Virus record (IMG/VR): IMGVR_UViG_3300032315_001442 | Span: 1 to 30,370 of that record | Strand: one strand, 5' to 3' | Length of the DNA stretch: 30,370 nt | Origin: a virus | In this document: piece after piece, positions 6,664-29,974 of the stretch | How positions within the stretch are numbered: the first letter of the stretch is position 1 | Layout of the letters: each line of letters begins with the position of its first letter | Notes under the pieces: model-generated | What the model saw: the letters and a program-made list of their open reading frames with translations, nothing else | Database searches by the model: none | Told to the model about the DNA's origin: nothing | Program-made: the position numbers and the translations under genes

Positions 6664-6671
6664 TATTTATA
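6664..6671 (-). promoter_or_regulatory. T4-type late promoter for gene 8
   Basis: TATAAATA on the minus strand, about 17 bases before the gene 8 ATG. It overlaps the TAA stop codon of the giant upstream gene (6667-6669). TATAAATA is the late promoter box read by the gp55 sigma factor in T4-like phages. Confidence 0.75.
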
Positions 6672-9600
6672 AGAGTTTTGGAAGTGCTCCAGTTTGTCTA
6701 ATCCCAATTCCTCTCCTCTGAATCGTTGCGAAGGTTGATAATCCAACATCCACAGTATTTCCCGTTACTCCTATTGAAATTGCAGAACTTGATCTATTAA
6801 ATCCAGACATTCTACCCCATGAGAATTTACCTATGGGGTTTGATATATTTCCAGTAGATGCTAACCCAACCACAGATGTAGTTGATAGTATATTACAAGT
6901 AATAATTCCAGTAGTGCTACTAGAGGAGATTTGATGAATATAGTAAATATTATCTACAAAGGTTGTTCCAATTCCAACCACTGCAGAGTTAGAACTGTTG
7001 ATAGAAGTTACTCCTTTTCCAACTCTTGTATCAAAAATATAAATCGGATATCCAGTTTGCAATTGAGGAAATCCAACAGGTCCTTCTAAAGTAAACTTAA
7101 GTGCTAGGGAATTTCCACCACTACCTGTCGTGGTTCCAATTCCAATAATAGTTCCGGAGAATCCATTTACTAGAGAAATATTTGTAATATTTTCATATAT
7201 TGGATCTGGAAGTGGAACAATAACTTCTGGTGGTCTCCCAACACTGTAACCCAATCCGGGATTTATAATTGTAATTGGAGTTGTTAGAGATCCTGCAGCA
7301 GAGACTGCAATAGTTGCGGTTGCAGTAGACCCAATACCAATACCACCCATAGGTAATGAGGTCAAAATACCAACTGTCGATGGTGCAGCGATCTTAACAG
7401 TAACTGATGCTCCGGTGTATCCACTTCCGGGGTTAATAATTGATAGGGATTGAATTGTTCCTGCAATAGAAACTATTGCAGTTACTCCAGCAGATACTGG
7501 ATCAGCAACTCCAGAAAAAATTAAAGCATCAAATTTTTCTGGTGCTGTCAAATCATAATTAAAGAATTCTGCATTATCTACAAATATTTCATCAGATGTA
7601 GTTGAAAAATCTTTAATAATTTTAGCAGTTGGATAAATCAAAGATTCAATAGAATCTCTAGTTTTATAAACATCTTCTCCGTTAATTTTCCTATCAACTT
7701 TTTGTTTAGTCCAACTCAATGGTTTATTATTTTCGGAATCAACTCCTTGATTTGAATATAAATTAGTTTCAAACTTATCAGAGAATGATAAATCAAATAC
7801 TGTTCTCTTATCTTGTGTTATTGTTCCGGGAATTGAATTATTCTTAAGAACCTGTACAGTATCACCTCTTTTTAGAGTTTCATTAATCGTATCATTTACA
7901 ACAACATCATCGCCATCAGTACCCTTATAGAAGAAAATGGCAACATTATCCTCTGGCCTTGGAGCAGTTGTGAATATGAAACTAGTTCCACCTTCAAATT
8001 CATATGCAACTCCAGGATCCTGAACTACTCCATTTATAACGATTAATAGTGCATTTGAAAGATTTACCTGAGAATCCTTAAGAGATTCAAAACTTAGTAG
8101 TTCATTATTATAGAATAATGGGAATCTTGTTCTGACTCCATCTTGATAATTTTTTATAGAATCTATATAATCAAACTCCCCAAACTGCCAAGATGCAAAA
8201 GAATCTGAAAATGTATCAACGACGGTCAATCGGAACTCTAATAATGGAGATGCCAATCCCTTAGCAGTAACTAATCCAACTGGTTTGAATACATCTCCCC
8301 TTTGGAATGAATATCCTTGCCTTGAAATACTAAATTTAGAAATTTCAAAGTATGTTGATCCTATTCCGGTTGTAGAACTTGCTCCAACTTCAACATTGAG
8401 TAAAAGACCTATTCCAGTTCTTGTTGTTGCCCCAAGTCCCAATCTAGATACGCCAATTACACTTAAATTTTCATATGATGGTTCAGATACGAATACTTTA
8501 GGATTTGTGTACCCAGTTCCGCCACCAACGACAGTAAATGATAGAGTTCCGCCTGCTCCAACTGTTGCCGATATCGTTGCAGCAGCACCTATGTGTCCAT
8601 TTTGATATACGGAAACTCCCACCGAAACAACACCATTATATCCAGAACCAAGATTATCAGTAGTTCCTAGTCCAACAGATACTATACTGCCTCCAGCACC
8701 AACTACAGCAGTTACTGCTGCTCCTACAAGAGGTGCATACCCAAGACCAGTAGAAGAACCCAACGAAATAATTATCCCCCCTCTGGGGGTTTGATTTTGA
8801 TTTACATCAAACTCCGAAGTAATAATTGTACCAGTACCAGCAGATGTAATACCAGAGAATACTACACTGGATATTCCGGAAATGGTATTCTCAATAATAC
8901 TAAAATTATTTTCTGGGTTATTGATAGTTGTTGGAGTTTGGAAAACACCATTTATGAATAAAATTCCATTTCCTCCAGTAGTTCCTAGTCCTACAGTGTT
9001 TGCTCCACCAACAGTCAATGTGAAAGTTCTACCAATGCCAGTAAATTGATTTGAAATATCATCATATAGTTGATTTGATGTATAATCATTTCTTAAGAAA
9101 ACTCTTCCAGTAAAATCGGAAGTTTCAAAAGTTAAATTACTAGAATCTTTTTCTATTTGTGAATTCCCTCTTGGAGATTCGGCAAAGAAAATATTACTAT
9201 CAACAATATTATAAGATCCTTTATAAATTCTTACTGGAGTAGAATTTGTATGAGTTGTTGCTGATGAACCAACAAATGCTCTAGTGACTTCAACTAAATT
9301 AATATTTCCACTATTTGTAATAGGTCCAATATTAGTCGTCCCTAATCCAACATTAATTATCCCCATATATTCATTATCAATTTTTAGAATATCTTTTGGT
9401 ATAATTGTAGATATTCCGCTCAAAGCAAATACTGAAGAACCTGCACTTATATTACCAAGTAAAGTATATGATATTGGAGTAAATTGTAATGGATATTGGA
9501 CAATATTGTCGATAGTAATAAGTGATTTTTCAAGTTTTTTATCCATTTCTAGTTGATGTGCATTACCACTGCCGTATGAAGTAAATGTAACTCCAATTCC

Positions 9601-12600
9601 AGAAATAGCATTAGATTTGCTTGTCGCTAGTTTAAATGTATTATCTGATAATTTAATGACATATACCTCAGAAGGTAATAATACTGGACCAGCACCAATT
9701 TCCATTGCACTGGCACCAACACCAATAAATGTTGATTTTGGTGTGTATATGAGTTTTTCTAGATTACTAAAGAAATGATTTTCAATAGTAAAAATTCCAG
9801 TTGATGGGTCTGGAGTTAATGGATTTATTGGATTAAATCTTTTTCTAAAAATTTCAATTCCATTGGAGTTTAGATTAAAATCAGTTTTATTAATTCTACT
9901 TCCATTAATTGCATTGTATAATTTAATATCAATGGATTCTTCTACTGTCCCATAACTTAAAATTGGAGCAGTATTTTGAGTATCTAAACTTGTATACAAA
10001 CATTGATTAAATGCTAAAATATTAACCTCTGAAGTTACTGATGGGTCTGGATAGAATTTTAGTATAAAATTACTACCAGAATATTCTCCACCAAAAGTTC
10101 CAATTCCATTTGTGCTTCCAACGGATAGAAAAGGTGACTGTTGGACATAAATGTTAGTTTGGTCCTGTACTAACATAATTTGGTGGAGGGCACTTGTGGA
10201 TCCAACACTAACCTCCACTAAGGATTTAACAGCATTAAAATTAGATTTATCTAATGATATGACAGTTGATGCAGAAGAAACTGTGGATGAATAAGTTGAT
10301 TGATATACCACACTTCTCTCATTTCCTGGTATTTGACCTGGAGATATAAATCTATATGCACCAGTTCCTACAGATGTTGTACCGAACCCAACAACCTTTG
10401 ACCTGACATTTACTGGATTCGATGAATTATTAATATAGTTTAATGATAAAATTCCAGAAGGAGAAATACTCGCCGTGAATATTCCTATATTATTTCCAGA
10501 ATAATAATTACTCGAAAATTCAGAATCAAAATAATATTCTGAGATATAAGTATCTACTCCATCATGATTCAAATAAACTTCGGCAAAGTTCATTTGAGTT
10601 GTTGCTGAACCAACAATCTGGACATTTAAATACAATGAAGAAAACTTATTAGATTCTACGGATATAATTGAAGTTTGTATTCCAGATGCCGCAGTTCTAT
10701 TAGAACCAGTTAGATTTATGAATCCAATAGAAGTTGTTCCAATTCCTGCTAAAGGAGAATTAAAATTACTATTGATTAGTTTAACATCATAATCAATATC
10801 GAATGGATTATTCGGAATAAATCTTAAGTAAGTATTATCATCCACATCGTCTTCAATTAATATAAATTCTCCTATTGGTTCTCCGGAGATATGTGTAAGT
10901 CCTACTCCAGTATTGACTAGAGTTGATTTTTCTGCCAAAAATAAATTACTTCCGCCATTCAGTAAAACTAATTCTGTCAATTGAATTTCAGTATTATCCA
11001 GACTAGAAACTCTGACTAGTATATTGTTATAAGATACTCCAGAATTTAATTCCAGTAAATTGAGAAATTCACTTGGATTGCCATCGGCGTTAGAAAATTG
11101 GCGATTTATGTCATCTATTTTTAAAACTACGTTACTTCTACACTCAATGTAATCAGTTAGTTTTTTATTTTTTAGTTTTAAAAACTTTGAAGAAGATCCA
11201 ACTACATCAATATCCTTTACTAAATCGAAATCATAAATTGTATCTACTCTGTTTTCTTCTATTATGTCATAAATTATAGTTGTAGCATTCTCAGAATTTA
11301 TAGAACCAAAGTTTGTAGTGGATGTAATTCCAGTGTCAGAAAAATTCTTTAATCCACTCGTATGAAGTAAACTATTAACTGGTGTTCTTAATTCTTGATA
11401 TGTAATTGGACTCTTTACAGTATAGGAAAGATTTTGGTAATAATCATTATCGGGAATAACTTGATTATCTTGATCTAATTTGCCAATATCATTAGACCAT
11501 CCAATGTTTTTTTCAACTGAATAGTCAATCTTAAATCTACCGATACCTGATTCAATTTTATCTATTGTTGCTATATTTCCAGATTCTTTCCCTATAATAA
11601 TTTCTCCAACAGACAACTCATAGGTTCCAGATACTTTAATAAATGAATTTTCATATGAAGAAATTTCTAAGTCTCTCTCGGTATTATTTGAAATAAGTTT
11701 TTCTCCAACAATAAACTCAGATGGAATTTGAGTAACATTAAATGTTGGATAATCAGTTCTTTTTATAATATTTCCAACAGAATCCTGAATTGTTTTTGCT
11801 ATACCAGTATTTGTAGTTAATCCGGAAATATTGATTGTTACTGAATCGAGAACTCCAGCAGTATTAATACTATCAATCTTGAAGAATTTGTATTCATAGT
11901 CTTCAGAATTAAATCCAGTCCCTTCGGTACTAAATTTTTGAATTCCTTCCACAAATACTTGATCATTAACACTAAAAGGATACGGCACAAAGGTAGAAAA
12001 TCCTAAAGTTGGTGTTGTTATGAAGCAAGTAAATATCCCACTTGAAGAAGATTGAACTTGTTGAATACTAATTCCATTAGTATTATTAGTGGTGAATAGT
12101 TTTACCGTTGTTTCGGGAAGACCCTTTGGTTGTTGTATAACACTTACAGAATCAATAGAATTTCCTGATAGTTTTGCTTCCAATATTCCACTATCAATTT
12201 TTTCTCCAGTACTAGAATTCACAATTATTACAGATGGTGCATCAGTATATCCATTTCCACCATTATTAACTGTAACAATACCAATTGTATTTGAGTCTTT
12301 AATTGTGATTAGAGGAGATATGAATGCAATTGGTTGTAAAGTTTTATCTGAAGAATATTGAAATCCTTCATTGACAATTCTTACTTCCTTTGCATTGCCT
12401 ATAGATGTCGATTTTGCAGTAATGTAAGCATCCTTTCCGTTCACAGAATTAGATCCTACGAATGTTGGAAGTTTTTTATATCCAGAACCAGCAGAAATAA
12501 TATTAATTCTATCAATAGGACCTTTTGCTGATAATGAAGTAGTAGTATATTGTAATTTATCACACTCATTTTGAATATATGTTAATTTTTCTGGTTTTTT

Positions 12601-15600
12601 AGATAAAGAAACAGTAAATGTTGTTGCTCCTACACCAGAAATTATATAATTAGAATTATATACACTGTTCGCAAATAATATTTCGGAATAGTTGTTCACT
12701 TCTGTGTCTGAAGTACTAATATATCCAGATTTTTCTAAATTATAATATAACTTTGTTGGTAAACTTTCACTATAATTAATTGCCAGAGAAGCATTAGTCG
12801 AAACTCCGATAGTTCCAATACCAGATAGCGTAAACAAATTAGACGATGGAGTTGAAATAAATTCATTATTATAACCTTGATCATAATAAAGTTTAAATTT
12901 ATATCCCACTAAAGAACTATCTGATAAATTGAATATAAGGTTATTATTTTTAATCGATTCAATTTGGGGATTTATTAATGAAATACTTTGACTTGAACCA
13001 CCAGTTCCGGCAATACTTACTGTTGTTGGGGGAATGGTTTTAGAGTCTAGATATGTTTCAGAAAGTTTTATTGTGTTATCATTAACTCGGTAAACATAAT
13101 AAAGTCCAGTTGATAATCCAGATGCAACTACATTGGATGAATATAGAATTTTATCTCCTGTTTTTAAGTTATGTGAATTAATTGAAATAGTATTTGTTGA
13201 TGTGTTAATTCCGGTTGAACTAAATCCAATTGGATTGATTAAAATGTTTCCAGTTATTAAATCTCTTTTTACTCTAATGCCAGTAGAAGTTCCAATACCA
13301 ACAGAAAGATTTGGCTCTATACTTAAACTAATAACATCTCCGCTAGAAAGTTCATGAGAAGTAGATACTGAAATTGTAGATTTAACTCTTTCAACTTTTC
13401 CAACTATTTGTGGGTATACACTTTCAAATGAATACTTATTATTATTATCACCGTTATTAATAAAAAATAGTTCAAAATTGGTGGTAGAACTAATTCCAGT
13501 TTTTATTCCAATTGTATTAATATTTTTATTGATTACATATACATTTTGAGGTAAATTGAATGGGATTCCTGTCGGTGACGTAGAAACTGAAATATTAGAA
13601 ACATTGTATGTAAATGTTACTAGTTGATTATTTGTGAATGGATGATTCTCAATATAAATTCCCTGAGTTGGAACAGTTCTAGTAATATTAGAATCTCCAA
13701 ATTGAAATGTTATAGTGTTTGTAATTCCGGGTGTAGTTCCTAATCCAACAGATTGTTTCGGATTAAAAAATACTTTGTCATTTACATTAGATTCAAAATA
13801 ATCTATTTTTTGTGAAATGGTAAATGAATCGGGAATAAAGTTTATTTGTGTAGTTGCAGTATGAGATACTCCAGTAGATCCTCTCTGAACTTTAAGTATA
13901 TTGAGATTTTTATATACTTCCAGTACCGATAATGTTTCACTGCCTATTTTAATGCTACTTCCAATAGATACTGTTGTCGGAAGTTGTGTAATATAAATTT
14001 CAGTTGTTAATCCGGATGTTGATGTTGATGGAATGTCCTTAAGAACATTTGAATAGTAAGAAGATACTCCAATCTTATATGAATTATTTAATTTGGATAG
14101 GTTGGTTGAAAATCCGGAAACCACAATAAAATCATTATTAGACAAATTGTGATATGGTTTAATGGTAACTTTTACTTCTGCTCCATCAGTATATGTAAAA
14201 ATAGAATTTTCATAAGTTTCTATAGAAGTATCTATTTTTGTAATATCCCTTCCTTCTATCGAAGAGACTCTTGCAATTAATCCACCTCCTGAAGTATTGT
14301 TATCATCAAAATTTAAAACATCATTAACTTTATAATCAGATCCAGAATTAATAATATCAAAAGAATTTACAAATCCTTCAGATACAGACTCAACAATTGA
14401 CTCTTGTGATGTAATTTCATTAGTTTCTATTATAAAATCATTTTTTGCGTAATTATCTGATACTTTATAAGGTAAGGTATTTCTAAGTAAATTTGAGTTA
14501 TTAAAATCAAATGTTTGGTTTAAAGTAGAGTTTTCATTTATAGTATTAGATCTGTACTTGTTTCCTATAAAATATGGAAACTTCGGAATCGAAAAAGTAT
14601 CTAGAGTCGCAAAATATGCATAAACTCCATTTGGAAATTCTGGTGTTTTTCCAAATCTTCCATTATTTTCATCCAAATCTCCAGAATTTGTGTACTCATA
14701 ATCTTCGATAAAAAATCCTGATGGAAGTAAAGGTCTATCAATAACATTAGAAGGATTTAATGTGTATCCAGATTCTAACCTTTTAGGCACTGAGTTTGAA
14801 TTTTCTGAATCTGAATATCCATATGCTCCATATATTGGATTTCCATCATATGCCCATCCAATTATATTAGAAACCTGAGATCCACTATCACCAAATGAAG
14901 TTCTTAAGTTTTCAAAATATCCACAAACAGAATACTGCAATTGATTTTCAGTTTCTATTAAAATTTCATCACCAAACTTTAAGTTATTATTAACTGTTAA
15001 ATCTCTAATATTGGCACTTAAAATTGCATTAGAACCTGAAGGATTTACTTTAATTATTGTTGAGGTGCTTGAGTATCCAATTCCTGGATTTACTATCTTA
15101 ATGTCTGTTATTTTTTGGTTAGTAATGACTGGTCTTAAATCTGCTCCGGATCCAGTCCCGGTTAAATCTGTTACAACCAAATCAGGACTTGAATAATAAT
15201 CAACTCCACCATATTGAATATTTACGGAATTAATTTGACCATTTACAATAATTGGTTTTAATTTTGCCTCCTTTCCGGTTTTTATCGTTATTAATGGTCT
15301 TTTCTCAAGATTTACAATTGTCGATCCATATCCAGTTCCACTTTCATATAGATAAGCATCTATAATATTACCTTTAACAATAGGAGTTGCCACAAGAGAT
15401 TGAATCTGTTGACTTGTAGTACCAAATCCAACAGGAGTATATTGTATAGAAACAGAAATATTAGGATAACTAAAATATTGATATCCCGATCCAGTAGAAG
15501 AAAATTTAATATAATTTTTTCTATTATAGTTTGATATATCAGTTCCACCAATTCCAGCATCACAAAGTCTAAAAGAATCATCATTATTTTTCAATACATA

Positions 15601-18543
15601 ATATTGCAATAATGTCGAAATTCCAATTGTAGATGTCTCATATCGATAAGTTACAAGTTCCCCACTCTTAAATCCGTGATTTTCGAAACTAATCGTATCG
15701 TTTATTGTAGATATTCCTGCCGAAGAAACAATTAACTCTCTATTTGTATATCCATTCCCACCATTTAATATTTTAATATCCGATATGGTATTTTTAAATG
15801 CTGCGGTAGAAAACTTATGTATTCCTCCAGTGTTAGTTGCATTAAAAGATATTGTATTGATTCCGGACAAATAATCGGAGTTAGTTTGAAAGAGTCTTAC
15901 AGTTGTATTATTATCAACTTTAGGATAATATGTGGCATTATTGACCAAAGTTAAATTTGTAGTACCAATACCAATTGGAGAATTTCCATTAGAATTATAA
16001 ACTACCAATTCCCCATTGCTTAAATTGTGATTCGTTAAAAATGACAATTGACTTGTCGTTGAACTAATTCCCCCAGAATTTGTGGTCAATCTTCCATCAA
16101 AGAAAATATCTCTTCTTCTCTTCGTAAGAATAGGTTCTAATACGCAACCAGACCCATTACCACCAGTTACACCAATAGATACAATTGTATTGATATCATA
16201 GTCTTGAGAATCGATATAAACTTTTTCAATTAACCCGCTAACTACTGATCTAACTAATGCCGTAGACCCAATTCCAGAAGAAACCGATATTAATGGGGGA
16301 TTAATCACATCATAGTCTATTCCACCATTTAATACACTAATAGATTTTAAAGGACCATAGTATACTTTATTATTGGATTTATAATTATTAACTTCAACAC
16401 CATTAATTAACATTCCGACTGAACCTGGAATTGTTAATTCTCCAGTTCCAGTATCGATACTTTCAGATAATGGAAATTTTTTGAGTAATTTTTGAGCACC
16501 AATTATACCAGATTTTTGAGAGTATAATGTAAATCTATGAGTTTGATTTACAAAATTTGCATCTGAAAATGTTAAGAAACTATCAGTTCCAACAAATGAT
16601 AATGATGAATACAATCTTATTTTATTAGATGGATCTAGAACTTGTACATAATAATCTCCAGTATCTAATCCAACAATAGGTGTTCCTGATGGTTGATAGT
16701 AAATTCTATCTCCGGTGATAAATGGAACATTATTTTGAAATACTATACTCGTGTAGTTGTTATCTATTACATCAGCAGTTGCTATTCCGACTGATGATTT
16801 GATGTCTTTTGTTATTTTGTATGTAAAATTTCCATTATAACCATCTCTACCCGAAGGTAATGAGTTAGACGCTACATAGGCATACTCATCATCAGTATAT
16901 AAATTTTGAATATCTGACAAGATGACATTATTTCCAAATTCTATTGGAACTACTGCACTGTTTGCGGTATTGATTTTTCTTCTTAGATCATACTTCACTC
17001 CATTTTCTGCCGTGAAGTTTAAATTATCTAGAGTAACTCTATTTTCTTCAGGTATAATACCTGAAACATATGCACCAGAGGACGATACTACAACATTACT
17101 ATCTTTTTCTAAAATTTCTACTTCATCTCCAATTTTTAAACTAGATCTGTCAATTGGACTTTTTAAAGTAAAATTACTGATATTTTCTATTTGATATCTA
17201 GATCCAGTATTGTATATCCACGAATTTGCAAATATTTCTTTATATGTCTTATTCTGCTGCGGATTTTGAATCAAATCCCCAATATTTTTAACTGATATTT
17301 TTTGCCCTTCATCTAAATTTAAAGTATCTGATACTTGAACAAATTTAGATAATACTCCCGTAAGTCTTAACTCAACTTTTTTATCCAAATCTCCATTTTC
17401 ATATCCAAAATAAATTTCATCAGATCTTATATCGGCAGATGATAAAATTGAAGATGTAATTCCGGTACATCCAAAAAACTGATTGACACTCTTACTTGTA
17501 TAAGCGATAGTATTAATTCCAGATATGATGGTTCCAATTCCAGCAAATCCTATTGTAGAGTCTACTGAAATTACTGACGACCCGATGGCAACATTTTTTA
17601 AACTTTTTGTATTTGGAGTAATTGTAAAATTTCCAAGAACAGCGGAAAAATTTTCATATCCAACAAAAAGTGAAATCTTAAAATATTGTATATTATTTCT
17701 GGTAAATAGTTCTACTTCAGAAATTGAGGCACTAGTACTCTCATCATTAAATTTCTGAATTGTTTGACCTACCAATTTAGAAGGATCTCCAGAAATTCTT
17801 TCTGCAATTACAACTTCTCTTCTTATAAATTCTGCCGAAGATGGTTTAATTAAAAACTCCTCTAAATTTACTACCAGAGGAGTTACTCCATATAAAATAT
17901 TAAATAAAATTTTAAATGATTCATCAGTCCCCTTTGCCTGATAAAATGATCTTGCTTCTTTTATGAAATTTCCAACATTTAAATTTGATACAAAGTCAAC
18001 TTCTTCTAGACCAGGAGTAAAGGTATATTTTATTTTCTTATAAAACTCTTTTAAGAATAAAGAACTTAGATTTTGTACGGAAGATTCAATACTATGTGAT
18101 GCAGATACTGATTCTGAAAATACTAATTCTTCTTGATTTGAATTTGAATGATAATTAGTGACACCACTAAATCCACGAACACATCCCGTAAATGTATTTG
18201 TTGTTATTCCGGTGTATGTAATAATTTCATCATCAATTTTCAATAATCCATAAGTTTGAGGAAAACCTTTAGTACTACTTACTGTAATAATATTTGATGT
18301 TGTTGTGATTCCTATTGTAAGTATCGTACTATCAACTACAACTTCTGGAGTTAGATTATCTAATTTCAAATATTGATCTAAATTTTCTGCAATATCAATT
18401 GGACCACCTTGATATTCTTGAGAAATATAATATTGCTTTAAAAATTCTGCCGTATTTGGACTTTCATCCAAAATAAAATTTGGAAGTTGATTTTCAATAA
18501 CTTGCTGAACCTTAACTCTAGATTCTAACCCAGTCTGTATCAT
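6667..18543 (-). CDS. 7: Giant gp7-like baseplate wedge protein (3958 aa) with YHYH domain
   Basis: One unbroken 3958-residue frame between genes 6 and 8, the position of gene 7 in T4. Residues about 30-60 (TAEFLKQYY) and 197-263 (ARSFYQAKGTDESFKILF, then KLVGQTI) resemble the C-terminal part of T4 gp7 (SRSYDFYSTKGIEASYKFLF ... EDLVGQTI), so the gp7-like part is at the N-terminus here. An insertion at about 70-150 carries a LKIDDEIITYTG...GCVRGFSG beta motif. The rest is Ser/Thr/Gly/Asn-rich beta sequence with two recurring motifs: G-x-G-Y turns (NGGNGYT, NPGIGYS, SAGSGYK, NPGSGYT) and G-[ILF]-G-T-T (at least ten copies). At about residues 1225-1330 (DNA about 14560-14870) lies a YHYH-type domain (WAYDGNPIYGAYGY, GRFGKTPEFPNGVYAYFAT, FPYFIGNKYR). 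T4 gp7 is about 1030 residues. The start follows the gene 6 stop by one base. The gp7 label is strong by position and moderate by sequence. Confidence 0.8.
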   Translation of the reverse strand: MIQTGLESRVKVQQVIENQLPNFILDESPNTAEFLKQYYISQEYQGGPIDIAENLDQYLKLDNLTPEVVVDSTILTIGITTTSNIITVSSTKGFPQTYGLLKIDDEIITYTGITTNTFTGCVRGFSGVTNYHSNSNQEELVFSESVSASHSIESSVQNLSSLFLKEFYKKIKYTFTPGLEEVDFVSNLNVGNFIKEARSFYQAKGTDESFKILFNILYGVTPLVVNLEEFLIKPSSAEFIRREVVIAERISGDPSKLVGQTIQKFNDESTSASISEVELFTRNNIQYFKISLFVGYENFSAVLGNFTITPNTKSLKNVAIGSSVISVDSTIGFAGIGTIISGINTIAYTSKSVNQFFGCTGITSSILSSADIRSDEIYFGYENGDLDKKVELRLTGVLSKFVQVSDTLNLDEGQKISVKNIGDLIQNPQQNKTYKEIFANSWIYNTGSRYQIENISNFTLKSPIDRSSLKIGDEVEILEKDSNVVVSSSGAYVSGIIPEENRVTLDNLNFTAENGVKYDLRRKINTANSAVVPIEFGNNVILSDIQNLYTDDEYAYVASNSLPSGRDGYNGNFTYKITKDIKSSVGIATADVIDNNYTSIVFQNNVPFITGDRIYYQPSGTPIVGLDTGDYYVQVLDPSNKIRLYSSLSFVGTDSFLTFSDANFVNQTHRFTLYSQKSGIIGAQKLLKKFPLSESIDTGTGELTIPGSVGMLINGVEVNNYKSNNKVYYGPLKSISVLNGGIDYDVINPPLISVSSGIGSTALVRSVVSGLIEKVYIDSQDYDINTIVSIGVTGGNGSGCVLEPILTKRRRDIFFDGRLTTNSGGISSTTSQLSFLTNHNLSNGELVVYNSNGNSPIGIGTTNLTLVNNATYYPKVDNNTTVRLFQTNSDYLSGINTISFNATNTGGIHKFSTAAFKNTISDIKILNGGNGYTNRELIVSSAGISTINDTISFENHGFKSGELVTYRYETSTIGISTLLQYYVLKNNDDSFRLCDAGIGGTDISNYNRKNYIKFSSTGSGYQYFSYPNISVSIQYTPVGFGTTSQQIQSLVATPIVKGNIIDAYLYESGTGYGSTIVNLEKRPLITIKTGKEAKLKPIIVNGQINSVNIQYGGVDYYSSPDLVVTDLTGTGSGADLRPVITNQKITDIKIVNPGIGYSSTSTIIKVNPSGSNAILSANIRDLTVNNNLKFGDEILIETENQLQYSVCGYFENLRTSFGDSGSQVSNIIGWAYDGNPIYGAYGYSDSENSNSVPKRLESGYTLNPSNVIDRPLLPSGFFIEDYEYTNSGDLDENNGRFGKTPEFPNGVYAYFATLDTFSIPKFPYFIGNKYRSNTINENSTLNQTFDFNNSNLLRNTLPYKVSDNYAKNDFIIETNEITSQESIVESVSEGFVNSFDIINSGSDYKVNDVLNFDDNNTSGGGLIARVSSIEGRDITKIDTSIETYENSIFTYTDGAEVKVTIKPYHNLSNNDFIVVSGFSTNLSKLNNSYKIGVSSYYSNVLKDIPSTSTSGLTTEIYITQLPTTVSIGSSIKIGSETLSVLEVYKNLNILKVQRGSTGVSHTATTQINFIPDSFTISQKIDYFESNVNDKVFFNPKQSVGLGTTPGITNTITFQFGDSNITRTVPTQGIYIENHPFTNNQLVTFTYNVSNISVSTSPTGIPFNLPQNVYVINKNINTIGIKTGISSTTNFELFFINNGDNNNKYSFESVYPQIVGKVERVKSTISVSTSHELSSGDVISLSIEPNLSVGIGTSTGIRVKRDLITGNILINPIGFSSTGINTSTNTISINSHNLKTGDKILYSSNVVASGLSTGLYYVYRVNDNTIKLSETYLDSKTIPPTTVSIAGTGGSSQSISLINPQIESIKNNNLIFNLSDSSLVGYKFKLYYDQGYNNEFISTPSSNLFTLSGIGTIGVSTNASLAINYSESLPTKLYYNLEKSGYISTSDTEVNNYSEILFANSVYNSNYIISGVGATTFTVSLSKKPEKLTYIQNECDKLQYTTTSLSAKGPIDRINIISAGSGYKKLPTFVGSNSVNGKDAYITAKSTSIGNAKEVRIVNEGFQYSSDKTLQPIAFISPLITIKDSNTIGIVTVNNGGNGYTDAPSVIIVNSSTGEKIDSGILEAKLSGNSIDSVSVIQQPKGLPETTVKLFTTNNTNGISIQQVQSSSSGIFTCFITTPTLGFSTFVPYPFSVNDQVFVEGIQKFSTEGTGFNSEDYEYKFFKIDSINTAGVLDSVTINISGLTTNTGIAKTIQDSVGNIIKRTDYPTFNVTQIPSEFIVGEKLISNNTERDLEISSYENSFIKVSGTYELSVGEIIIGKESGNIATIDKIESGIGRFKIDYSVEKNIGWSNDIGKLDQDNQVIPDNDYYQNLSYTVKSPITYQELRTPVNSLLHTSGLKNFSDTGITSTTNFGSINSENATTIIYDIIEENRVDTIYDFDLVKDIDVVGSSSKFLKLKNKKLTDYIECRSNVVLKIDDINRQFSNADGNPSEFLNLLELNSGVSYNNILVRVSSLDNTEIQLTELVLLNGGSNLFLAEKSTLVNTGVGLTHISGEPIGEFILIEDDVDDNTYLRFIPNNPFDIDYDVKLINSNFNSPLAGIGTTSIGFINLTGSNRTAASGIQTSIISVESNKFSSLYLNVQIVGSATTQMNFAEVYLNHDGVDTYISEYYFDSEFSSNYYSGNNIGIFTASISPSGILSLNYINNSSNPVNVRSKVVGFGTTSVGTGAYRFISPGQIPGNERSVVYQSTYSSTVSSASTVISLDKSNFNAVKSLVEVSVGSTSALHQIMLVQDQTNIYVQQSPFLSVGSTNGIGTFGGEYSGSNFILKFYPDPSVTSEVNILAFNQCLYTSLDTQNTAPILSYGTVEESIDIKLYNAINGSRINKTDFNLNSNGIEIFRKRFNPINPLTPDPSTGIFTIENHFFSNLEKLIYTPKSTFIGVGASAMEIGAGPVLLPSEVYVIKLSDNTFKLATSKSNAISGIGVTFTSYGSGNAHQLEMDKKLEKSLITIDNIVQYPLQFTPISYTLLGNISAGSSVFALSGISTIIPKDILKIDNEYMGIINVGLGTTNIGPITNSGNINLVEVTRAFVGSSATTHTNSTPVRIYKGSYNIVDSNIFFAESPRGNSQIEKDSSNLTFETSDFTGRVFLRNDYTSNQLYDDISNQFTGIGRTFTLTVGGANTVGLGTTGGNGILFINGVFQTPTTINNPENNFSIIENTISGISSVVFSGITSAGTGTIITSEFDVNQNQTPRGGIIISLGSSTGLGYAPLVGAAVTAVVGAGGSIVSVGLGTTDNLGSGYNGVVSVGVSVYQNGHIGAAATISATVGAGGTLSFTVVGGGTGYTNPKVFVSEPSYENLSVIGVSRLGLGATTRTGIGLLLNVEVGASSTTGIGSTYFEISKFSISRQGYSFQRGDVFKPVGLVTAKGLASPLLEFRLTVVDTFSDSFASWQFGEFDYIDSIKNYQDGVRTRFPLFYNNELLSFESLKDSQVNLSNALLIVINGVVQDPGVAYEFEGGTSFIFTTAPRPEDNVAIFFYKGTDGDDVVVNDTINETLKRGDTVQVLKNNSIPGTITQDKRTVFDLSFSDKFETNLYSNQGVDSENNKPLSWTKQKVDRKINGEDVYKTRDSIESLIYPTAKIIKDFSTTSDEIFVDNAEFFNYDLTAPEKFDALIFSGVADPVSAGVTAIVSIAGTIQSLSIINPGSGYTGASVTVKIAAPSTVGILTSLPMGGIGIGSTATATIAVSAAGSLTTPITIINPGLGYSVGRPPEVIVPLPDPIYENITNISLVNGFSGTIIGIGTTTGSGGNSLALKFTLEGPVGFPQLQTGYPIYIFDTRVGKGVTSINSSNSAVVGIGTTFVDNIYYIHQISSSSTTGIITCNILSTTSVVGLASTGNISNPIGKFSWGRMSGFNRSSSAISIGVTGNTVDVGLSTFATIQRRGIGIRQTGALPKLL

Positions 18544-21094: not shown

Positions 21095-21421
21095 TTAACG
21101 ATTTACTTCTCGAAGATTGTAATTATCAGAATTTAGATATTTTAATAACTCAATTGCAATTAATTTGGGATTTCCTTCACCACAAGTATACACATCAATC
21201 GCAATACATCCATTTTCTGGCCAAGTATGACACGAAACATGACTTTCAGAAAGCGCAATAACGATGGTACAACCCTGAGGAAGAAAACAATGAGAAAAAA
21301 TGTTCAAAATAGTCATATTTGCCCGATTAATACCCTTCTCCATTGTTTCTTGGAGAGATATTACATCATTTAAGAGGTCAAATTTAACATCATACACCTC
21401 CAAAAGGAGATGAGTTCCCAT
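21095..21421 (-). CDS. speD: S-adenosylmethionine decarboxylase SpeD (auxiliary metabolic gene)
   Basis: A 108-residue pyruvoyl-dependent AdoMet decarboxylase of the short bacterial class. It makes decarboxylated AdoMet, the aminopropyl donor for spermidine synthesis. The proenzyme cuts itself at Glu59-Ser60 in LSESHVSCHTWPE; Ser60 becomes the pyruvoyl group, and His65 and Cys80 (in DVYTCG) match the catalytic His68 and Cys83 of the Thermotoga enzyme with a constant offset of 3. All key residues are present, so it should be active. I used the ATG at 21421 (MGTHLLLEVY) because MG-HLL is the family start; a TTG 15 bases upstream would add MEQYS. A GGAA lies about 9 bases before the ATG. speD is a common auxiliary gene in T4-like cyanophages, presumably supporting polyamine supply during infection. 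Confidence 0.95.
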   Translation of the reverse strand: MGTHLLLEVYDVKFDLLNDVISLQETMEKGINRANMTILNIFSHCFLPQGCTIVIALSESHVSCHTWPENGCIAIDVYTCGEGNPKLIAIELLKYLNSDNYNLREVNR

Positions 21422-21455
21422 TGAATACTGTTCCAATTATTATTCCAGTAAAAAG

Positions 21456-24580: not shown

Positions 24581-24613
24581 GAAGAAATCAATTGTTAAAT
24601 TTTGTGAAAACCC

Positions 24614-24642
24614 TTGACATGGCACCCGAAAACGACTATAAT
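24614..24642 (+). promoter_or_regulatory. Consensus sigma-70 promoter facing against the genes (copy 1)
   Basis: TTGACA (24614-24619), 17-base spacer, TATAAT (24637-24642) on the plus strand: a perfect consensus. No plus-strand gene follows. Transcription from about 24649 would enter the AT-rich tract, then the hairpin at 24712-24730, then the 3' end of the ring nuclease gene in antisense. Confidence 0.85.
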
Positions 24643-24655
24643 TGATCTGTACTCA

Positions 24656-24710
24656 CCCTGCCATGAAATAATAAAGTATAAAAAATATAAAAATCTTAAG
24701 TATAAAGAAT
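24656..24710 (+). repeat. Conserved CCTGCC box and AT tract (copy 1)
   Basis: CCTGCCATGAAATAATA followed by an AT tract. A string of about 38 bases at 24674-24711 is identical to the corresponding string of copy 2 (about 25285-25322). The ATG-AAA-TAA here is not kept in the other copies, so it is not a conserved peptide. Confidence 0.75.
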
Positions 24711-24711
24711 A

Positions 24712-24730
24712 GGGGGATGATTAGTCCCCC
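24712..24730 (-). terminator. Hairpin terminator after the ring nuclease gene
   Basis: GGGGGA and TCCCCC with a 7-base loop, flanked by AAGTATA boxes; on the minus strand it is followed by TATTCTTTATA. It is also the first hairpin met by plus-strand transcripts from 24614. Confidence 0.68.
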
Positions 24731-24749: not shown

Positions 24750-25091
24750 TCATCCAATATACCTCATCAGGGCAAATTCATACCCAATTTCTTCTAAAGT
24801 TGGGCGGTCCAAAATTGCACCCTCCGGAGGGCGACTCATGAGGCGAAAACATAGGAACCTGTCGCCAGGTGTGGGCGACACGGTGATCCTATTCTGGGGG
24901 ATCTCCACCCCTAGAAGATTAGTTAATACCTCTGCCGTAGACTGATGCCCAACGGCGGAGGTCCACCCTTGGTACCCGGCGCCCTCCGGGAAGACCATCA
25001 GCGCCGCCTGGGCGGCATCGATGGAATCCATCTCCCAGCGTCCCCAGGCGCCGCCGGGGATGATCGTAGTGGACATGATGTAGGTGGTCAT
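24750..25091 (-). CDS. acrIII-1: DUF1874 protein: AcrIII-1 viral ring nuclease (anti-CRISPR)
   Basis: A 113-residue protein of the DUF1874 family (STIV B116, SIRV1 gp29, YddF). Members called AcrIII-1 degrade cyclic tetra-adenylate, the second messenger of type III CRISPR systems, and so block the ancillary nuclease response. The core reads SAVGHQSTAEVL, LLGVEIPQNRI, GDRFLCFRL, SRPPEGAIL, EEIGYEFAL. His49 in GHQST and Glu90 in PPEG stand where His47 and Glu88 act in SIRV1 gp29, so the active site is intact. Length fits the family (about 105-115). I chose the ATG at 25091 because the conserved leader ends there and the first strand TTYIMSTTIIP aligns with the family start; a frame to 25187 is longer but has no family counterpart. 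A later ATG (MSTTII) is possible. It stands alone between a leader and a hairpin. Family assignment is firm; activity is inferred. Confidence 0.9.
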   Translation of the reverse strand: MTTYIMSTTIIPGGAWGRWEMDSIDAAQAALMVFPEGAGYQGWTSAVGHQSTAEVLTNLLGVEIPQNRITVSPTPGDRFLCFRLMSRPPEGAILDRPTLEEIGYEFALMRYIG

Positions 25092-25110
25092 TTCGGTCAG
25101 TGGTGATTTA
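25092..25110 (-). promoter_or_regulatory. C-rich leader of the ring nuclease gene
   Basis: AATCACCACTGACCGAA ends directly at the ATG, a divergent copy of the module leader. There is no Shine-Dalgarno. Upstream GGTATTGTATGGAAG may hold the -10 region. Confidence 0.6.
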
Positions 25111-25225
25111 CTTCCATACAATACCAGCAGCACCCCGATCCCGCAAGCATCCAACGGTATCGTCCTGATACCAAAATCAAAATCCAATAGATCAGCGATC
25201 CTAATGTGTCAAAGCGTTAAAACCC

Positions 25226-25254
25226 TTGACAAGACCCATCAGATCCGCTATAAT
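25226..25254 (+). promoter_or_regulatory. Consensus sigma-70 promoter facing against the genes (copy 2)
   Basis: TTGACA (25226-25231), 17 bases, TATAAT (25249-25254): perfect consensus, plus strand. It would transcribe the two large inverted repeats at 25310-25478 and has no plus-strand coding sequence downstream. Confidence 0.85.
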
Positions 25255-25309
25255 TGATCTGTACCCACCCTGCCTTGAAATAGTTAAGTATAAAAAATAT
25301 AAAAATCTT

Positions 25310-25356
25310 AAGTATAAAGAATAAAGAATCGAATCCTTCTTTTATTCTTTATACTT
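25310..25356. repeat. Inverted repeat 1 (AAGTATAAAGAATAAA arms)
   Basis: Left arm 25310-25328, right arm 25337-25356, an 8-base loop. The arms are complementary over 19 bases with one bulged A. All A/T except a few bases. It begins at the AAGTATA box that flanks the hairpins of other modules. Confidence 0.8.
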
Positions 25357-25673: not shown

Positions 25674-25770
25674 AATCTCGATGTGATGTATGTGTGTGTA
25701 TCTCGACGAGATTTGTGTGTATGTGTGTGTATCTCGTCGAGACTAATGTATGCGAATCTAGTCGAGATTC
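25674..25770 (-). promoter_or_regulatory. Cluster of ATCTCGWCGAGAT palindromes (left cluster)
   Basis: Sites lie at 25674-25687 (degenerate half site), 25700-25712 (ATCTCGACGAGAT), 25731-25743 (ATCTCGTCGAGAC) and 25754-25770 (GAATCT-AGTCG-AGATTC). Between them are GT-rich spacers (TGTGTGTGT). The sites at 25700 and 25731 are about 31 bases apart, near three helical turns, and lie upstream of the 56-aa gene; the last overlaps the stop of the 44-aa gene. They look like operator sites. Confidence 0.7.
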
Positions 25771-26540: not shown

Positions 26541-26617
26541 CCAGTATGAACCCAAACGGCACCAGAGTCAAGGGGTTGATTGATCAGCGATGCTAATGTC
26601 ACAAAGTGTGAAAATGC

Positions 26618-26646
26618 TTGACATGGCACTCAAAAACGACTATACT
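26618..26646 (+). promoter_or_regulatory. Consensus sigma-70 promoter facing against the genes (copy 3)
   Basis: TTGACA (26618-26623), 17 bases, TATACT (26641-26646) on the plus strand. The spacer TGGCACTCAAAAACGAC differs from copy 1 at only two or three positions. Upstream it shares GATCAGCGAT.CTAATGT with copy 2. The first downstream element is the hairpin at 26692-26711. Confidence 0.82.
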
Positions 26647-26683
26647 TGATCCGTACCCCACCTGCCTTGAAATAGTTGGGTAT

Positions 26684-26711
26684 AAAAAAAAGGAGGCAAC
26701 TTGTGCCCCCT
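26684..26711 (-). terminator. Rho-independent terminator after the 83-aa module gene
   Basis: On the minus strand GGGGGCA and TGCCTCC pair (one G-U) around a 5-base loop and are followed by a run of 8 T. A near-identical element of about 38 bases is at 28043-28080. Confidence 0.8.
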
Positions 26712-26721
26712 TAAGTATAAT

Positions 26722-28080: not shown

Positions 28081-28752
28081 TCAACCTACGATCTGGTTGA
28101 CTGTTTTTTTGGCAGTGCCATGTGCGGGCAATGCTACAATGAACTTGCGGTCTGCTATCTGACACAAACCGCAAGTCGCACAGGTTACCTTATCTGGGAA
28201 AAGTGCAGCAGGGCAGGTTATAACTTTGCGACCGGATTCTGTTGTATAGAATCGGCGGATTTCTTCAGAGTTAACAACTGCAACGGCAGGTAGGTTATAC
28301 TCAGTCATCACACGGTCAGCATCTTCTACTGATTCGGTGCTAACGTTAACAGTGAACCCCATAGAGTTTGCATTCTCTAGGCACACACGGTTGTGATCAT
28401 TTAGCGTGTGGTGAGTATAAGTATAACCTTTCTTGCCTTTGTTTGCATCAATCAACTGCCGCAGTTGCAGATAATCAATGTTACCATCATTGTGAGGCAA
28501 ATCACCCGCAACATTGTGGCGCCATAGTTGACCTTTTGCAATCTTACGGACAAGTTTAGTAAACTCTGCCCAAGATACGCCACGCTCGGCATTAGAAACT
28601 GCCCGCCAATGTACACCCTGAAGGTGATACTTTGCGTAACAACCTTTATCAATAAATGGACAACATGGAGCGCAAGATGATTGCTCACTTGTGCTGATGG
28701 GGATGGGTCCCGTCTTGCTATTCTTGGAAGCGGTGGTGAGAGCGACTTGCAT
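28081..28752 (-). CDS. Cys-cluster protein, 223 aa, conserved phage family of unknown function
   Basis: A 223-residue protein with two Cys clusters: CAPCCPFIDKGCYA (Cys27, 30, 31, 38) and, after Cys180, CATCGLCQIADR (Cys191, 194, 197). Between them are LWRHNVAGDLPHNDG (about 77-90), IDANKGKKGYTYTHH (about 101-115) and GFTVNVSTESVEDADRV (about 132-148), and near the end ALPAHGTAKK (about 207-216). I recall a phage and bacterial family with this order of motifs (WRHN.AGDLP, KGYTYTH, CPA, CATCGLC, PAHGT) that is still a domain of unknown function. The Cys pattern suggests a metal or Fe-S centre, and the TIM-barrel-like order of blocks is possible, but no enzyme activity can be claimed. The start is set by the module leader; a frame to 28833 is longer. 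Confidence 0.75.
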   Translation of the reverse strand: MQVALTTASKNSKTGPIPISTSEQSSCAPCCPFIDKGCYAKYHLQGVHWRAVSNAERGVSWAEFTKLVRKIAKGQLWRHNVAGDLPHNDGNIDYLQLRQLIDANKGKKGYTYTHHTLNDHNRVCLENANSMGFTVNVSTESVEDADRVMTEYNLPAVAVVNSEEIRRFYTTESGRKVITCPAALFPDKVTCATCGLCQIADRKFIVALPAHGTAKKTVNQIVG

Positions 28753-29857: not shown

Positions 29858-29885
29858 GATCTCGATGCGTTTTGTATGTGTGTAT

Positions 29886-29974
29886 TATAGTTGATGATGT
29901 GGATCTCGTCGAGATTGTGTGTGCCACTTGTGCGACTGTCACATCTCGACGAGATTATAGTCTCGACTAGATTT
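29886..29974 (-). promoter_or_regulatory. Promoter with palindrome cluster (right cluster)
   Basis: TATAAT (minus strand, about 29884-29889) with palindromes at 29903-29916, 29943-29956 and 29961-29974 upstream. The first palindrome covers the -35 position (TCGACG at 17 bases), as expected for a repressor operator or activator site. Confidence 0.68.

Follow-up and report, generated by a model that had tools for sequence, protein, structure and literature searches.

We analyzed a viral contig of 30,370 nucleotides (IMG/VR record IMGVR_UViG_3300032315_001442, whose full length we call the window) and identified a small gene of the DUF1874/AcrIII-1 family, acrIII-1, within a minus-strand array of accessory genes (Table 1). 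The translation contains everything that the original prediction had read from this segment, namely 113 residues with GHQSTAEVL, LLGVEIPQNRI, RPPEGAIL, His49 and Glu90; missing there was the strand, which is minus, the plus strand of 24750–25091 not being open and having many stops. An alternative in-frame TTG at 25187, upstream of the ATG, would give a protein of 145 residues; the ATG at 25091 was preferred because the starts of the homologues align there. The GC content of the gene is 57%, reaching 63% in its first half, and that of the baseplate genes of the contig is around 31%.

The contig carries the T4-like baseplate genes gp25 and gp6, identified by Pfam and PHROG family matches, and its gp6 is 71% identical to that of S-SKS1 and 69% to that of S-SRM01. 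Together, these families and the cyanophage relatives support the T4-like cyanophage setting that had been proposed from the letters alone. Of the named phages, the freshwater Synechococcus phage S-SRM01 (Serangoon Reservoir, Singapore) is the closest at the DNA level, and one gene of the accessory array matches a Dishui Lake phage. This similarity to freshwater Synechococcus phages speaks against the marine Prochlorococcus framing of the original prediction, and it makes a freshwater picocyanobacterium of the Synechococcus/Cyanobium type the most likely candidate host. As a separate observation, the 3958-residue ORF adjoining gp6 is very long for its position in the baseplate cluster.

Table 1. 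Positions of acrIII-1, its predicted control elements and other features in the window
Feature	Position	Strand	Remarks
acrIII-1 gene (DUF1874/PF08960)	24750..25091	minus	113 aa; ATG 25091, TGA stop 24750; His49, Arg68, Arg87, Glu90
Predicted sigma70-type promoter of acrIII-1, TTGCGG-17 nt-TATTGT	25118..25146	minus	same hexamers and spacing in L041
Leader CACCACTGACCGAA directly before the acrIII-1 ATG	25092..25105	minus	variant of the CACC..GACC leader
Terminator-like hairpin GGGGGACTAATCATCCCCC just past the acrIII-1 stop, with a T-rich tail behind it	24712..24730	minus	from sequence
108-nt intergenic repeat, downstream copy	24604..24711	unstranded	perfect TTGACA-17-TATAAT on the plus strand
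108-nt intergenic repeat, upstream copy	25216..25323	unstranded	86% identical to the 24604..24711 copy
S-adenosylmethionine decarboxylase (PF02675, E 5e-30), auxiliary metabolic gene	21095-21436	minus	also in S-SRM01
DUF7227 protein (PF23872, E 1e-81), Cys-rich C-terminus	28081-28752	minus	S-SRM01 gene at the same place noted as Gp37/Gp68-like
Single 3958-residue ORF adjoining gp6	6667-18543	minus	matching S-SRM01 gene annotated 'baseplate wedge initiator'
Short-palindrome clusters around ATCTCGWCGAGAT	25675-25769 and 29859-29973		possible operator sites

Family, fold and active site

The HMM check proposed with the original prediction gave a significant match: against Pfam PF08960 (STIV_B116-like, DUF1874), the protein scored 72.5 bits (E 3.4e-20, profile positions 2–100 of 101), the curated cut-off being 26 bits. 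It also matched PHROG 5063, whose function is unassigned (E 4.5e-18), and, in a phmmer search of the PDB, AFV3-109 (2j6b, E 7e-18) as well as STIV B116 and SIRV1 ORF114. The E-values for PF08960, PHROG 5063 and AFV3-109 exclude a chance match. When a profile of 25 aligned relatives was compared with the PDB, 2j6b was recovered at 8.7e-42, the Marinitoga Csx1-Crn2 fusions at 1.9e-16 to 3.2e-14 and SIRV1 gp29 (6scf) at 8.2e-13. The originally proposed family is thus borne out by Pfam, PHROG, PDB profile and fold matches alike. The PADLOC model for Csx16 matched as well (E 5.5e-15) but its 54 bits are below the score of PF08960, and an NCBIfam search gave no family at E 0.1, Csx16 included. Csx16 is described as a ring nuclease of cyclic tetra-adenylate (cA4) that is structurally similar to 2j6b (PMC12409355). 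We assign the protein to DUF1874/AcrIII-1 and see in the Csx16 label a neighboring or mixed model. A PADLOC scan of the protein and seven neighboring ORFs found no convincing Cas protein; on its T4-like contig, acrIII-1 is virus-encoded, stand-alone and outside any CRISPR locus.

An AlphaFold2 model of the single chain, computed with the 25-sequence alignment, had a mean pLDDT of 91.8. The Foldseek ranks 1–16 (all E < 0.001) were DUF1874 structures, including 6scf and the cA4-bound 8y7g, and the VIA Z for AcrIII-1/Crn2 structures ranged from 15.3 to 10.2 vs. 2.8 for the next fold. In the structural comparison suggested at the outset, the single-chain model thus matched only DUF1874 structures well, 6scf (SIRV1 gp29) among them. 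Ser45, Gly48, His49, Arg68, Arg87 and Glu90 are invariant in the 25-sequence alignment, and the same six residues are again invariant among the 12 aligned members of the cyanophage branch described below. Counted along the SIRV1 alignment, His49, Arg68, Arg87 and Glu90 correspond to His47, Arg66, Arg85 and Glu88 of SIRV1 gp29, the pairing of His49 and Glu90 being the one predicted. The founding AcrIII-1 paper reportedly assigns a catalytic role to Glu88 and Arg85. The cA4-degrading activity of AcrIII-1 is lost in the H47A variant (PMC7213978), and a mutant of the equivalent catalytic His of Crn2 shows no cA4 degradation (PMC7293037).

The closest functional counterparts differ in their setting. 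The archaeal-virus proteins (SIRV1 gp29, 6scf/2x4i; AFV3-109, 2j6b) have the same Pfam family, fold and catalytic residues and are likewise stand-alone viral proteins of ~110 aa, but their hosts are hot-spring archaea whereas the host here is probably a cyanobacterium. The window protein is ~38–42% identical to the lipothrixvirus proteins and only ~17% to the biochemically characterized SIRV1 gp29, which weighs against reading it as a ring nuclease. Crn2, including the Marinitoga Csx1-Crn2 fusion (8y7f, 8y7g), has the domain and the catalytic His in common with it and cleaves the cA4 ring; in contrast to the protein found alone in this phage, it is cellular, a type III CRISPR component and fused to an effector.

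The acrIII-1 slot and its predicted control elements

The two 108-nt copies of Table 1 lie as direct repeats on either side of the gene. A relative, contig L041, is 87–93% identical to the window across long stretches on either side of this slot, yet the promoter-like TTGCGG-17-TATTGT and the downstream repeat that enclose acrIII-1 in the window enclose two different genes there (L041:816-1592), of 103 and 131 aa and without known family; these are candidates for other counter-defense functions. We read the element upstream of acrIII-1 as a probable promoter because the same hexamers and spacing precede the different genes of L041. PF08960 was absent from 10 of 10 relatives examined, the complete S-SRM01 genome included, and it was not seen in the available DNA of 80 anchor-gene relatives, many of which are fragments ending short of the slot. 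We infer that recombination within the conserved intergenic segments exchanges the genes of the array, and that acrIII-1 would be exchangeable cargo of the accessory array with its own predicted promoter. The comparison with L041 illustrates how counter-defense genes can swap between phages.

The CACC..GACC leader also precedes at least eight other genes of the array. Overall, at least nine small minus-strand genes between 24500 and 29330 have this leader a few bases before the ATG, at the place expected for a Shine–Dalgarno sequence, and a related, more palindromic form is found in S-SRM01 and DSL-LC03 (GTTCACCACTGAAC in DSL-LC03). The intergenic repeats at 24604–24711, 25216–25323 and 26608–26715 contain perfect or near-perfect plus-strand sigma70 promoters (TTGACA-17-TATAAT or TATACT) that oppose the array genes; their hexamers are conserved but their spacers are not, and contigs L040 and L041 contain copies as well. 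These promoters may drive antisense or small RNAs, and transcription from the predicted copy at 24614 would enter acrIII-1 at its 3′ end.

A cyanophage branch of the family

Among annotated phages, the sole cyanophage homologue was gp35 of Synechococcus phage S-CBWM1, annotated 'putative DNA binding protein' and 36.6% identical to the window protein; S-CBWM1 belongs to another phage genus (Aokuangvirus) and has the gene in a tRNA-rich neighborhood. A scan for close relatives with the single acrIII-1 protein as query gave no match. The IMG/VR and genome scans were run with a three-protein alignment, and those of the IMG/VR contigs provided ten further close homologues for the tree. In the maximum-likelihood tree, which is unrooted so that a branch means a split, the window protein, S-CBWM1 and the ten homologues form one split (support 100/99) that stands apart from archaeal, Fusobacterium, Vibrio and other sequences; support for the inner branching is weak, and the branch leading to S-CBWM1 is long. 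The 12 aligned members have 20 invariant columns that include the catalytic set and the branch-typical Trp19 and Cys81, two residues conserved here and not general across the DUF1874 family. Some members have a C-terminal extension, which the window protein lacks.

Several members have neighbors that point to cyanobacterial hosts. The Rad52 of L012 is 73% identical to a Microcystis phage Rad52, the helicase of L126 is 83% identical to that of S-H1 and 68% to that of S-LBS1, and the neighbor gene in L123 matches, among all phages, S-SRP02 only. The neighbor in L011 gave only non-cyanophage matches at 26–30% identity, and host clues sought for L122, L124 and L128 were not found; a search for the gp6 family in the contigs of seven other members gave no match, the control likewise giving no signal. 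By these gene matches, the members with host evidence appear to span T4-like myovirus, Aokuangvirus, S-LBS1-like, S-SRP02-like and Microcystis-phage-like genomes, and a distinct AcrIII-1 branch is, on the same comparisons, present in several unrelated cyanobacterial viruses.

An earlier survey reports AcrIII-1 from 36 of 28,114 phage genomes, and S-CBWM1 may be one of the 36 (PMC12409355). Our literature search found no description of a cyanophage AcrIII-1 branch or of a member in a T4-like cyanophage. The 'anti-CRISPR' calls in the freshwater cyanophage Pam2 come from prediction servers and, in the portion of the report available, are not linked to DUF1874/AcrIII-1 (PMC9382816).

Proposed function, alternatives and targets

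We regard the family, the fold, the conserved active site, the phage setting and the different genes in the L041 slot as established, and we consider it very probable that the protein is a phage AcrIII-1 ring nuclease directed against type III CRISPR; cA4 cleavage, dimer formation, timing, host and benefit are what we infer within this reading. The phage would express the small protein from its own promoter during infection, and the protein would dimerize and bind the cA4 made by the host type III (Cas10) complex upon detecting phage RNA. His49, with Glu90 and Arg87, would then cut the ring into linear di-adenylates, so that effector nucleases of the Csx1/Csm6 type, which are activated by cA4, would stay off and the infection would proceed. 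Among phage ring nucleases, AcrIII-1 is the most frequent (PMC12409355). AcrIII-1 as a trigger of the Panoptes defense was a separate candidate, which we rejected on a published test that says no (PMC12657218).

The invariance of the catalytic residues throughout so divergent a branch makes three alternatives less likely. The protein could be a sponge for cA4 or a related cyclic nucleotide, binding it but leaving it intact, or its true substrate could be another signal: phage sponges for cyclic nucleotides exist, the ring-nuclease candidate Csx15 has been suggested to be a sponge (PMC12409355), and the branch has its own conserved Trp19 and Cys81. Yet a pure sponge could lose the catalysis-linked residues, all of which are kept, and where tested, both AcrIII-1 and Crn2, the cellular form, act enzymatically on cA4 (PMC7213978, PMC7293037), making this quite improbable. 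A DNA-binding regulator, as suggested by the GenBank records of the S-CBWM1 and lipothrixvirus homologues ('putative DNA binding protein' or 'DNA binding protein'), has very little probability, since the annotations look transferred, the conserved positions are the catalytic ones and later structures and assays of the family show cA4 binding and cleavage (6scf, 8y7g; PMC7213978, PMC7293037); the branch placement suggests correcting this misleading name on the S-CBWM1 homologue. We find it just as hard to credit that the protein mainly processes the 3′ ends of phage or host RNA and cleaves the ring as a side activity. The Crn2 domain does trim RNA 3′ ends in a manner dependent on the catalytic His (PMC7293037), but this is described as something the fusion enzyme does in addition, and viral members are otherwise known for fast cA4 cleavage (PMC7213978, PMC12409355).

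For the favored ring nuclease, a cA4-type target in freshwater cyanobacteria is plausible and unsurprising because III-B systems of picocyanobacteria and Microcystis, and Csx3/Crn3 in cyanobacteria, have been reported. CRISPR-Cas was found in 15.9% of the freshwater picocyanobacterial genomes surveyed, marine genomes nearly all being without it, and gene organization was displayed for the subtypes III-B, I-E and I-G (PMC11316352). A putative novel type III system is described in S. lacustris (PMC9361551), and of the several III-B loci of Microcystis, one acted against phage T4 when placed in E. coli (PMC11855584). Csx3/Crn3, a ring nuclease specific for cA4, occurs most often in euryarchaea and cyanobacteria, adjoining III-B operons (PMC7371418). 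The original suggestion of an unexpected host range or defense is therefore weak, as freshwater picocyanobacteria carry III-B (PMC11316352, PMC9361551). In the S-SRM01 study, two examined Synechococcus strains had no CRISPR array and an array-bearing strain had no spacer matching the phages (PMC8557907), which counts against the ring-nuclease reading and leaves CRISPR pressure on this phage group hypothetical. Our scan of 84,980 species genomes with strict patterns found acrIII-1 relatives at nine loci, all on non-cyanobacterial contigs; given the strict patterns, absence of the family from cyanobacteria does not follow.

If the enzyme works as proposed, it would be genetic evidence that freshwater picocyanobacteria, from which III-B loci have been described, confront cyanophages with type III immunity based on cA4. 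A further reading, which we consider unlikely, is that the branch is adapted to cyanobacterial III-B signaling, perhaps with another signal or kinetic tuning than the archaeal enzymes, and that its spread would mark cA4-based immunity as a major force in freshwater cyanobacteria. Because its proteins come from several phage lineages, the branch itself offers material for testing cA4-based immunity.
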